Shown piece after piece: positions 37,553-42,542 of a stretch of DNA of 42,542 nucleotides (the first letter of the stretch is position 1; every line of letters begins with the position of its first letter). The position numbers and the translations under genes are program-made. The DNA lies in contig CAJCCR010000068.1 in assembly GCA_903960945.1 (NCBI GenBank), forward strand, positions 1 through 42,542. Reading direction: 5' to 3'. Under the pieces are notes generated by a model that made no database searches, had not been told where the DNA came from, and saw only the letters and a list, made by a program, of their open reading frames with translations. This stretch comes from an uncultured Planctomycetaceae bacterium (GTDB lineage: Bacteria > Planctomycetota > Planctomycetia > Gemmatales > Gemmataceae).

Positions 37553-38554
37553 ATGGTAATAAAAACATCAATAATCGCTGGCATCGACATAGGTGGGGCA
37601 AATATTAAATATTGCCAATCTGATGGGTACACCCTAAACACCATATTTCCACTATGGAAAAAAAAGAACGCCTTACCTACGATTCTTGAAAAAATCATAC
37701 CTGCAAAAAAAATTAAAACACTCGCAATCACCATGACTGGAGAACTATGCGACTGCTTTAAAACAAAAACTGAAGGCGTGAGATACATCTTAAGTTCCAT
37801 TCCTAAGAAACAATTCACCCCCTTTGTTTGGACTACAACCCAAAATTTCATTCCTCTGGACAACGCAATCCAAAACCCAACAATTTGTGCTGCTTCAAAC
37901 TGGTTAGGCTTGGCAAGCTTTATTGCAAAACAACATCCTGAAAACTTTGGGCTATCAATCGATATCGGCTCAACCACCACAGACATCACATCCATCGATC
38001 AAGGAATCCCAAGTCCAAGTGGTATCACCGACACCCAACGTTTAAATTATGGCGAACTTATTTACACCGGCATGAAACGAACCCCAATGGCATCATTATT
38101 AGGAAGCAAATACGCGCAAGAATTTTTTGCAACTATTGCGGACGCCCACCTCCTCCTAAACAATTTAAAAGAAGATGAAGAAGACACTGAAACCGCAGAT
38201 GGAAGATCATTTACAAAAACAAACTCGGCTAGGCGAATTGCCAAAATGCTTTGTGCAGATCAAAATGAAGTCCCAATGTCTAGAGTTATAAAAACAAGCG
38301 AACTTGCTATAAAAACACAAATCAAATGGATCACGATTGCCCTGAAAAAACATCTCCAAAGAAAAGATAAAGAACCAAAATGGATCAGCATATCAGGATC
38401 GGGGGAAGCATTGGGAAAAATGATAGTAGAATCATTTAAATGGAAAACAAAGCCTAAGATTCAGTCATTTTCTAACGCATTCGGAATTGAAAATTCAAGT
38501 GCGGCATGCGCCTATAGCATTATGAAATTAGCTGGTAATTACCATGAACTGTAA
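37553..38554 (+). CDS. Hydantoinase A/oxoprolinase-like protein of the H4MPT-linked C1 pathway (MfnF-like)
   Basis: IIAGIDIGGANIKYCQSDG ... LAITMTGELCDCFKTKTEGV ... LSIDIGSTTTDITSI; next to mfnE-like and mfnB. Confidence 0.82.
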   Translation: MVIKTSIIAGIDIGGANIKYCQSDGYTLNTIFPLWKKKNALPTILEKIIPAKKIKTLAITMTGELCDCFKTKTEGVRYILSSIPKKQFTPFVWTTTQNFIPLDNAIQNPTICAASNWLGLASFIAKQHPENFGLSIDIGSTTTDITSIDQGIPSPSGITDTQRLNYGELIYTGMKRTPMASLLGSKYAQEFFATIADAHLLLNNLKEDEEDTETADGRSFTKTNSARRIAKMLCADQNEVPMSRVIKTSELAIKTQIKWITIALKKHLQRKDKEPKWISISGSGEALGKMIVESFKWKTKPKIQSFSNAFGIENSSAACAYSIMKLAGNYHEL

Positions 38555-39143
38555 TGTCATTAAGGTTGGAGGAAGCCTTCTTGACACAAACGACTTACCC
38601 CAAAAACTCGACCAATTTCTAAAAAAATTGCAACCCGCCTGCACAGTAGTGGTAGTTGGCGGCGGAAAAGCGGTGAGGAAAATAGAATTAAATAATGCAA
38701 ACAAAAACCCTTTCCTTGAACACTGGGAATCATTGGCAATAATGACTGAAAATGCCATTGCGTTAATGTCTCATTTCCAAGGCGCCACAATGGCAATCAC
38801 ACCATTTAAAAAAGACTTGGGTTTGTTTTTTTTAGATGCACATCAATATTGCAAAAGGGACCAAAAGATTAATGGTGAACCTTATTTGCCACAAACTAGG
38901 GATGTGCGCTCTGATACTGTTGCACTTCGATTCGCACAAGACTTCGATTTCAGTGAATTATATTTGTTGAAGTCAGTTAACTTCCCAGCATCAAAAAACT
39001 GGGAAGATGCGTGCAACCAAAATTATGTCGATCCTTTTTTCTACAAGCTATTCAATAACAAAAAAAATAACCCCACCATATATACAATTAATTTAAAATC
39101 ATCACAAACTCTTCAGCCTTTTTACTGCGGCAATAAGATCTGA
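38544..39143 (+). CDS. Amino acid kinase family protein (MfnE-like)
   Basis: VIKVGGSLLDTNDLPQKL, TVVVVGGGKAVRKI, RDVRSDTVALRFAQDFDFSELYLLKSV; 11-nt overlap with the MfnF-like gene. Confidence 0.8.
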   Translation: MNCNVIKVGGSLLDTNDLPQKLDQFLKKLQPACTVVVVGGGKAVRKIELNNANKNPFLEHWESLAIMTENAIALMSHFQGATMAITPFKKDLGLFFLDAHQYCKRDQKINGEPYLPQTRDVRSDTVALRFAQDFDFSELYLLKSVNFPASKNWEDACNQNYVDPFFYKLFNNKKNNPTIYTINLKSSQTLQPFYCGNKI

Positions 39144-39815
39144 AGTTAAATCAAAATCAACTGTTTTATTTCGAGAGCGCTCTTTACAAACTGCACCGCG
39201 AAACCCAAACCATGCAGGCTTGACTCCCTCCCGAATAAGCCACGTTATTCTTTCAAGATTCAATGACCCTGCAAGAGCAAATTTAACATTACGAGCATGA
39301 CACTTATTTTGTATTTGCAAAAGTTCATCGACTGTAATCCAGTCAAGTACCGAAGAACCATCTTTAGCCCAAGTATCGATCATAATCGCAAAAAAAGAAT
39401 GCTCAAATAAAAGTTCTAAAAGAGCGAATGGCTTGCTTGAATTAGCTTTTAAATAATCGCCGTATAGTACAGGAACTACAAAAGCAGATTTATTTAATAA
39501 AAGGGCCTGCTCTTTGAGTGAAAGCAAATTATCTACCCAGTGACCTGTACTTTTGCAATTCGAAAGCCCAAACTTATAAAAAGAAATACCACTAGGGAGA
39601 AAATCTGATCCTTTGGGTACATCGCACAACTCCCCACAAGCCATGCTAAGGGGCAGATTAGAAGGCAGAGCATTTTGGATTAATGAAACAACTGATAAAT
39701 CAACCATACCCATAGCAGCTTTTTCAGGCTCTTTTAAATCGATAAGGTCAACTCCAGCCCTTAAAGCTATTTTTGCTTCTTCAACATTTCGAACACTAAC
39801 TAACACACTAACCAA
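39102..39815 (-). CDS. mfnB: (5-formylfuran-3-yl)methyl phosphate synthase (MfnB-like)
   Basis: MVSVLVSVRNVEEAKIALRAGVDLIDLKEPEKAAMGMVDL...FALAGSLNLERITWLIREGVKPAWFGFRGAVC, typical of MfnB (former DUF556). Confidence 0.92.
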   Translation of the reverse strand: MVSVLVSVRNVEEAKIALRAGVDLIDLKEPEKAAMGMVDLSVVSLIQNALPSNLPLSMACGELCDVPKGSDFLPSGISFYKFGLSNCKSTGHWVDNLLSLKEQALLLNKSAFVVPVLYGDYLKANSSKPFALLELLFEHSFFAIMIDTWAKDGSSVLDWITVDELLQIQNKCHARNVKFALAGSLNLERITWLIREGVKPAWFGFRGAVCKERSRNKTVDFDLTSDLIAAVKRLKSL

Positions 39816-39978: not shown

Positions 39979-42542
39979 ATGATAAAAATTTACCCGAATT
40001 ACGAACCACTTCCAGGTTATCGAGTCCTTGAGAAAATAGGCAGTGGTGGATTTGGCGAAGTCTGGAAATGCATGGCTCCGGGAGGGATTCTTAAAGCCAT
40101 TAAATTTGTATCAGGAAAACTTGGAGCAAAATCAGACATACGGGCAGAACAAGAATGGCGCGCAATTGACCGTATTAAAATTATAAGACATCCTTTCATT
40201 CTTACGATGGAACGAATTGATATTATCGAAAACTGCCTAGTTATTGTTATGGAACTTGCAGATAAAAACCTTTGGGACCGATATCAGGAATGCAAACAAA
40301 AAATATTACAGGGAATACCAAAAAACGAGGTATTACATTACCTTGCAGAATCTGCGGAAGCACTTGATGTAATCAATTCACAGTATCAGCTACAGCATTT
40401 AGACATTAAGCCACAAAACCTATTTTTGGTTCATAATCATTTAAAAATTGGAGATTTTGGTCTAGTACACGATCTTACAATTGCAGACCAAGAATTTGAA
40501 GGCGGAATTACACCAATTTATTCCGCACCCGAACTCATAGAGGGCCGACCAAGCAGATTCAGTGACCAATATAGCCTAGCTATAGTTTACCAAGAAATGA
40601 CAACTGGGAAAAAACCCTTTGAATCGGATAATTTACGAAATATTATTAAATCACATTTAAATGATGCCCCAAATCTTTCTTCACTTGAGGAGAGTGAAAA
40701 ACCTATCATAGCCCGCGCTCTTTCAAAAAAACCCGAAGATCGTTTTAAAACTTGCACAGAATTTGTAAACGCTTTAAAAGCTATACATTTACCTTTTGGT
40801 TTTCAAATAACGAATCAACCTTTAATTCTAGAAGATCAATCTATTGCTCCTGAGTCAAAAACTAATGAACAACGATTCAAAAACATTGACCTAAATAAAA
40901 CATTATCTTTCAAAAAATCAAATGATGAACAAAATCCATTACCCCAATTAAATGAACGAGAAGATTCAAATCAAAGCAAAGATCTTAATCTAAACCAGGA
41001 AAATCGAATAGGTTCATTAATAATTGGCCTAGGAAGAACGGGAATTGGGGGAGCCGCATTTTTCGATAACGCACTTAATAACTACTCAAAATCAACTGGA
41101 CTAACTCTACCTATTGAAATACTTGGCATTGATATCGACAATCAGGGTCTAACCACGGAAAAAGATAACGATCAACTTAAATTGCCTTTTGAAAAAGCAG
41201 TGGTTTTCAAACTTAACAGACCTAACTATTACTTAGGCAACAAAGAAAAATCTGAAAAACTAGCACAATGGCTTCCTCTAAGTAAGCTGTATCAAATTCC
41301 AAAAAACCTTAGCACAGAAGGAAATAGAACATTAGGAAAACTCGCAATATTTGATGCGGGAGAAAAGTTAAATGACGAACTAAAAAAACTTTTGAACAAA
41401 ATCAATCAATCCGCATACTCGAACACCATGCCGGGTATAATTAGCCCTAATATTTGGATTTTAACGCATGCTGGAGGTGGCGCCGTTGGTTCACTTCTAG
41501 ATGTTTGCAAATCAGTTATCGAATCATGCCTTCAACTAAACTTGAAGCCACCTACATTCAATCTAATTTTGGCATTGCCTGCAAAAGAAAATTGCAGCGT
41601 GCAAATAGCAACAAATACAACCATCACAATGGAAGAATTAGAAAAAATAGAAATAGCAGATCTAACACAAAAAACAATCTTGCTAGAAACATCAACCGAT
41701 GAAAATGCGGTTCATTTTAAATTAATGCAAGATATGGGAACCATAGTTTATGCAAATCAATTAAAAATTTACAACCAAGGTTCGGAAATCAACAAAAATT
41801 ATAAACCCGAATATTCGTCAAAAAGATCTTACAAATCTGCTGGGGCGCAGTTAGATTTACTATCAAACGAATTAAATCAACAAGCAATAATTAACAAAAC
41901 CTCTTTGGAATTAATCCGATCATGGGTACAAGAAAAACCTGCTTATCACCACGAAATCAGCACCTGGCTTGACCAAGAATTAATAAGAAACAATATTACA
42001 TTTGAAAATCTAACATCAAGTCTTACAGAGCACCTTGAATTCAAATTAGGTGATGCAATCAGTTCATTCATACTAAAAGATCTAATTGATCCATTGTTCA
42101 AATTAGAATCCAAATTAGGAACCCAGGAAATATCCAGTGAAACGATTACAAAAACGAGCTTGAATATTCTTAAAAATTCGGAACAAAATTTAGGACTCGA
42201 ATGGTATACAAGTGAAAATTTAACTGATAAAGGAACTTTCTACAAAATAATGATGCAAAAAATCAACGATCTAACTGAAATTTTTGGTTCGGTGATTGAT
42301 TCTTGGATAGTTCAATGGATTGAAAAACCGGGATATCGTTTTGCCGCTGCAGAAATCCTTCTAACGACCATCAAGAAAAAAACAGAAGAACTTCGAATTC
42401 AAACAATTTCAAACCGAGAAAAACACCATTCAAGTTTAAAGGTTGATTTACTTAGATTTAATAATGCAATCCAACAACCTGCCGGAATAAAGGGTGGATA
42501 TAACCAATCAATCCAGAAAATCATCGGCCAATTAAAATCACT
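39979..42542 (+). CDS. Ser/Thr protein kinase fused to a divergent tubulin/FtsZ-like (Tubulin_2-type) domain; truncated at the window end
   Basis: My translation from the ATG at 39979 is open to the window end (at least 854 codons). Kinase motifs: IGSGGFGEVW, LKAIKFV, HLDIKPQNLFL, IGDFGLV, YSAPELIEGR. The tubulin-like part begins near 41002: NRIGSLIIGLGRTGIGGAAFFDNAL, PIEILGIDIDNQ, RTLGKLAIFDAG, IWILTHAGGGAVGSLLDVCKSV, YKSAGAQLDLL, IEKPGYRFAAAEILL. Confidence 0.85.
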   Translation, partial: MIKIYPNYEPLPGYRVLEKIGSGGFGEVWKCMAPGGILKAIKFVSGKLGAKSDIRAEQEWRAIDRIKIIRHPFILTMERIDIIENCLVIVMELADKNLWDRYQECKQKILQGIPKNEVLHYLAESAEALDVINSQYQLQHLDIKPQNLFLVHNHLKIGDFGLVHDLTIADQEFEGGITPIYSAPELIEGRPSRFSDQYSLAIVYQEMTTGKKPFESDNLRNIIKSHLNDAPNLSSLEESEKPIIARALSKKPEDRFKTCTEFVNALKAIHLPFGFQITNQPLILEDQSIAPESKTNEQRFKNIDLNKTLSFKKSNDEQNPLPQLNEREDSNQSKDLNLNQENRIGSLIIGLGRTGIGGAAFFDNALNNYSKSTGLTLPIEILGIDIDNQGLTTEKDNDQLKLPFEKAVVFKLNRPNYYLGNKEKSEKLAQWLPLSKLYQIPKNLSTEGNRTLGKLAIFDAGEKLNDELKKLLNKINQSAYSNTMPGIISPNIWILTHAGGGAVGSLLDVCKSVIESCLQLNLKPPTFNLILALPAKENCSVQIATNTTITMEELEKIEIADLTQKTILLETSTDENAVHFKLMQDMGTIVYANQLKIYNQGSEINKNYKPEYSSKRSYKSAGAQLDLLSNELNQQAIINKTSLELIRSWVQEKPAYHHEISTWLDQELIRNNITFENLTSSLTEHLEFKLGDAISSFILKDLIDPLFKLESKLGTQEISSETITKTSLNILKNSEQNLGLEWYTSENLTDKGTFYKIMMQKINDLTEIFGSVIDSWIVQWIEKPGYRFAAAEILLTTIKKKTEELRIQTISNREKHHSSLKVDLLRFNNAIQQPAGIKGGYNQSIQKIIGQLKS

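Follow-up and report, generated by a model that had tools for sequence, protein, structure and literature searches.

The end of this locus poses the question of whether a Ser/Thr kinase and a divergent tubulin/FtsZ-like domain are parts of one protein there, and, if so, what such a protein might do. The window, meaning the whole 42,542-base stretch that was analyzed, coincides exactly with its contig and stops at 42542 because the contig stops there. On the forward strand, an unbroken frame beginning at TTG 39955 or ATG 39979 runs to the window end without a stop codon. As relatives share the start MIKIYPNYEPLPGY at ATG 39979, comparison points to this ATG as the likely start codon, and the interval 39979..42542 (+) then carries the 5ʹ 854 codons of a kinase-Tubulin_2 (FtsZl1) fusion gene whose frame is cut by the contig end. 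The gene was absent from the ORF track, probably because it runs off the contig. Its tail was located by using a complete ortholog to query the same assembly: the last ~234 codons lie at the end of contig C192, at about 36409-35703 on the minus strand, and the two contigs leave a gap of about a dozen residues present in neither. On C192, the ORFs put the stop codon 4 bp ahead of scpA, which was identified by a PF02616 match. Complete orthologs in the window's genus are ~1,080-1,120 aa long.

The kinase domain was placed at 40018..40758 (+), where residues 14-260 match Pkinase (PF00069) above the Pfam cut-off at E 1.5e-33. A complete eukaryotic-like kinase had been proposed in the sequence-only reading, and every motif that it named is present: the G-loop (GSGGFGEV) at 40036, the lysine of AIK at 40093, HLDIKPQN at 40396, DFG at 40450, and APE at 40519. 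The catalytic Lys, HxD, and DFG sit N-terminal to the Tubulin_2 region in the same frame, which is how we recognize a kinase-FtsZl1 fusion. Between the two domains, a linker at 40759..41016 (+) is rich in N, L, Q, K, and E and evolves almost freely, with dN/dS values of 0.6-1.5 against the window and 0.23 in one other pair. The earlier description of this linker as hydrophilic and without a TM helix agrees both with its composition and with a Kyte-Doolittle scan of a complete ortholog, in which no TM-like 19-residue stretch was found (maximum mean 1.49). Within the genus, dN/dS is 0.02-0.06 for the kinase and 0.10-0.24 for the tubulin part, and both are under purifying selection though the genus is fast-evolving.

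Downstream of the linker, residues 347-556 match Tubulin_2 (PF13809) at E 2.6e-8, scoring 34 bits where the curated cut-off is 27, a weak match but above threshold, and the resemblance to Tubulin_2 that had been suggested is thus borne out. From this match, the family alignment, and motif positions, the nucleotide-binding-like domain was assigned to 41017..41646 (+); genus members score 36.9-44.8 bits against the same profile. Its glycine-rich T1 loop (IIGLGRTGIGG) lies at 41020-41052, followed on the same strand by IDID, resembling the FtsZ NTD, at 41128-41139 and RTLGKLAIFD at 41326. At 41470-41493 (+), motif position and family alignment identify an altered T4 loop, AGGGAVGS. The claim of a tubulin loop at AGGGAVGSLLD is therefore half right: a T4-like loop is there, but AGGGAVGS is not the standard GGGTG(S/T)G, which is a GTP-binding signature (Makarova & Koonin, PMC2875224). 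T4 reads GGGAVGS, GGGAVGA, AGGAAGA, or AGGAAGS across the window's genus, none of whose members has the standard signature. Among 78 related Tubulin_2 proteins compared, six of them from this genus, GGTG[SGA]G occurs in 50 under a strict and 56 under a loose definition. Other FtsZl1 paralogs also deviate in T4, so the loss is not unique to the genus, and since the loop varies among paralogs, FtsZl1 membership rests on the profile. Seven residues, namely G13 (the T1 glycine), D46, R111, G161, G165, D169, and W310, are invariant in 28 aligned proteins, and over the tubulin part the window protein shares 13-18% identity with other genera. The remainder, 41647..42542 (+), which includes PGYRFAAAE at 42328 and continues on C192, is a C-terminal region common to other FtsZl1 proteins; iterated search and alignment support homology over the whole length, an FtsZ-like domain followed by a long region.

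Profile evidence favors a tubulin fold for this domain. PF13809 matches of E 1e-37 to 1e-44 were obtained for three scpA-linked relatives. One of these (L113) also hit the Tubulin/FtsZ profile PF00091 at E 1.6e-7 and 32.2 bits, just under the 33-bit cut-off, rising to 36.4 bits when its neighbors were included. A profile of 21 relatives searched against the PDB returned 33 weak matches (best E 0.1), 31 of which were FtsZ-, TubZ-, or tubulin-like, and a sequence search of the PDB with the window's tubulin part alone gave no match. A full-length profile (A1) mainly retrieved helical bundles and apolipoproteins from the PDB, which we read as reflecting the composition of the helical tail rather than homology. 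An AlphaFold model computed from the window protein and four relatives (L040-L043) was too poor to use (pLDDT 38.5, pTM 0.33) because the input sequences were near-identical; it is this low-confidence model alone in which the C-terminal region appears helical. Foldseek on the model found no match at E ≤ 0.001, a result set aside given the quality of the model. The window protein has no match to FtsZ_C or Tubulin_C and no identified T7, and no PF00091 FtsZ/tubulin protein was found in the window's genome.

We then consider how far this architecture extends. Tubulin_2 was detected in 113 of 249 sampled genomes of the class, in up to four copies each, and in 9 of 201 genomes of a broader phylum sample, three of the nine belonging to the same class. 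A kinase with HxDxKPxN and DFG precedes the domain in the same frame in 72 of the 78 related proteins. Among the other six, L111 and L120 are cut by contig ends, L087 is missing the N-terminal kinase motifs, L079 has a degenerate kinase, and L083 and L147 have none. Outside the class, HxDxKPxN was absent from the readable frames of L153, L154, and L156, and L151 was cut by a contig end. The L079 copy (L079:5899-9339, G074:C59), a kinase-FtsZl1 paralog reading HGRLKLSN and LDWG in place of the usual motifs and also lacking the T4 signature, is likely a pseudokinase. The viral contigs searched yielded one Tubulin_2 protein (E 1.6e-69), which has no kinase and is encoded at L150:4866-8264 on a 75 kb contig of a viral collection (IMGVR_UViG_3300031452_000003).

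The sequence-only reading had allowed for related fusions in other planctomycetes, and they prove to be both widespread and published; its overall architecture of kinase, soluble linker, and FtsZ/tubulin-superfamily domain is upheld by the profiles, the relatives, and earlier work. Makarova and Koonin defined FtsZl1 in 2010 and reported four planctomycete members with an added N-terminal kinase (PMC2875224), kinase-fused FtsZl1 in planctomycetes was described again in 2023 (PMC9871819), and a 2024 kinase survey, looking at domains found solely in cytoplasmic kinases, ranks the tubulin-like domain first among these partners (PMC11032199). The fusion is therefore not new, having been in print since 2010. 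The window protein shares domain order, phylum, and a helical/coiled C-terminal region with the published FtsZl1-kinases (PMC2875224, PF13809), from which it differs in being far diverged, in its altered T4, and in the position of its gene before scpA, a context not found in PMC2875224 or PMC9871819. Also close are the cytoplasmic planctomycete Ser/Thr kinases with a tubulin-like domain of PMC11032199, in whose consulted passages neither this genus nor scpA linkage is treated at the level of the locus. Its likeness to FtsZ, TubZ, and CetZ is at superfamily level, in the T1, IDxD (FtsZ NTD), and T4 regions; unlike them, it has no FtsZ_C or Tubulin_C match or identified T7, and T4 is altered across its genus. 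As far as we could find, the scpA linkage and the T4 loss in this genus are new; no paper on the scpA link turned up in a literature search that was thin on subscription journals.

In the window's genus, the gene order is mfnB (opposite strand), kinase-FtsZl1, scpA, and uvrB (opposite strand). The conserved divergent neighbor, a MfnB-like 4-HFC-P synthase, lies at 39102..39815 (-; PF04476, E 5.5e-52). It belongs to a stretch at 37553-39815 with Hydantoinase_A-like and amino-acid-kinase genes that, going by their Pfam names, is possibly a methanofuran-type cofactor set. With the window's own genome excluded, 12 of 53 searched Tubulin_2-bearing genomes of the family have scpA directly downstream on the same strand, and the linkage appears in 9 of its 21 genera, the window's genus and eight others. 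At the extremes, the gene and scpA overlap slightly or stand about 200 bp apart, and several of these loci carry two kinase-FtsZl1 genes in tandem before scpA. An upstream mfnB in the opposite orientation is present in 13 genomes. The gene order before scpA may be inherited rather than functional, as conservation is just as strong on the opposite flank for mfnB, whose function is unrelated. Moreover, the kinase-FtsZl1 gene is dispensable in one genome without a Tubulin_2 match, G062, since there mfnB and scpA are direct neighbors 137 bp apart, leaving a natural empty site (L133, G062:C84:318000-330000). Orthology with the scpA-linked copies was argued from gene order and not from the tree, in which the genus sits on a very long branch (2.83); one tree row with a wrong genus label (L116b) was disregarded.

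Elsewhere in the class, the families examined showed no scpA close to the gene. Its recurrent neighbors there were one FHA-EAL cluster, adjacent or close by in 13 genomes, a GGDEF-CBS response-regulator cluster close by in 9, and a protein weakly matching AAA/P-loop families. These names come from Pfam searches of cluster examples, two for FHA-EAL and two for the weak AAA/P-loop family (three examples for the FHA-EAL and GGDEF-CBS clusters). FHA-EAL proteins, which join a phosphothreonine-reading domain to a c-di-GMP phosphodiesterase domain, are encoded, for example, at L092:4650-5774 and L072:4343-5443, and at some such loci a GGDEF-CBS response regulator is encoded close by. The window's own genus showed no FHA-EAL neighbor.

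These data can be set against several explanations. That two genes were joined by an assembly error, or that the gene is decaying, could be suspected from its break at the contig end, which recurs in two other genomes (G078 and G058). The same fusion is present in single-contig genomes (G022, G014, G042) and in nearly all of the compared proteins, and dN/dS is well under 1 in both domains; on the single-contig genomes and dN/dS we rejected a frameshift, assembly join, or pseudogene, and the sequencing error that the sequence-only reading had allowed for is barely credible. A kinase-regulated dynamic GTPase filament, in line with the phosphorylation-controlled polymer suggested in the sequence-only reading and in which the FtsZl1 domain would bind and hydrolyze GTP and polymerize while phosphorylation in cis switched it on or off, would fit the GGTG[SGA]G signature and GxGxxG T1 loop kept by most relatives, together with the PF00091 match of one scpA-linked relative just under the cut-off. 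We consider it unlikely, given that the T4 signature is lost in the window's genus and that Makarova and Koonin did not succeed in identifying T6-H7 or the filament-forming C-terminal domain in FtsZl1 (PMC2875224).

That same T4 loss would suit a signaling enzyme whose tubulin-like part is a docking or dimerization scaffold with no nucleotide role, feeding FHA and c-di-GMP pathways. FHA domains read phosphothreonine, and the FHA-EAL and GGDEF-CBS clusters near the gene in other families are consistent with such a role. However, no FHA-EAL neighbor turned up in the window's genus, and G13, D46, G161, G165, and D169 are conserved in 28 of 28 aligned members, so we give this reading a low probability as well. 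Membership in a membrane-remodeling complex, as proposed for FtsZl1 generally with vWA, GTPase, and OmpA partners, is suggested by the family itself and by the gene neighborhoods reported for its other members (PMC2875224). It appears very doubtful here, as the protein has no TM segment and the annotated recurrent neighbor families (scpA, mfnB, ASCH, FHA-EAL, and weak AAA/P-loop) include no vWA, OmpA, or P-loop GTPase.

The explanation that we tentatively prefer, at somewhat less than an even chance, is a soluble cytosolic kinase composed of an active-looking Ser/Thr kinase, a flexible linker, a divergent FtsZ/tubulin-superfamily domain, and a helical tail, and steered by assembly or nucleotide. 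The tubulin-like part and helical tail would assemble or bind nucleotide, and this state would concentrate or switch the kinase, setting its location or activity. The kinase would then phosphorylate itself and nearby partners; in the window's lineage, the condensin (SMC-ScpAB) machinery, or proteins produced alongside it, would most likely be among these partners. Because the genus has lost the T4 signature, weak or no GTP hydrolysis would be expected, and the protein would act as a scaffold, not as a dynamic filament.

That, in this planctomycete family without FtsZ, the kinase-tubulin protein and ScpA, made from one operon, couple phosphorylation to condensin-driven chromosome organization or segregation, with the window's genus carrying a hydrolysis-dead scaffold, is rather improbable on this evidence. 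Planctomycetes divide without FtsZ. For their chromosome organization and division, a kinase-tubulin fusion found commonly across the class and adjoining scpA in several genera offers a concrete, testable candidate link.
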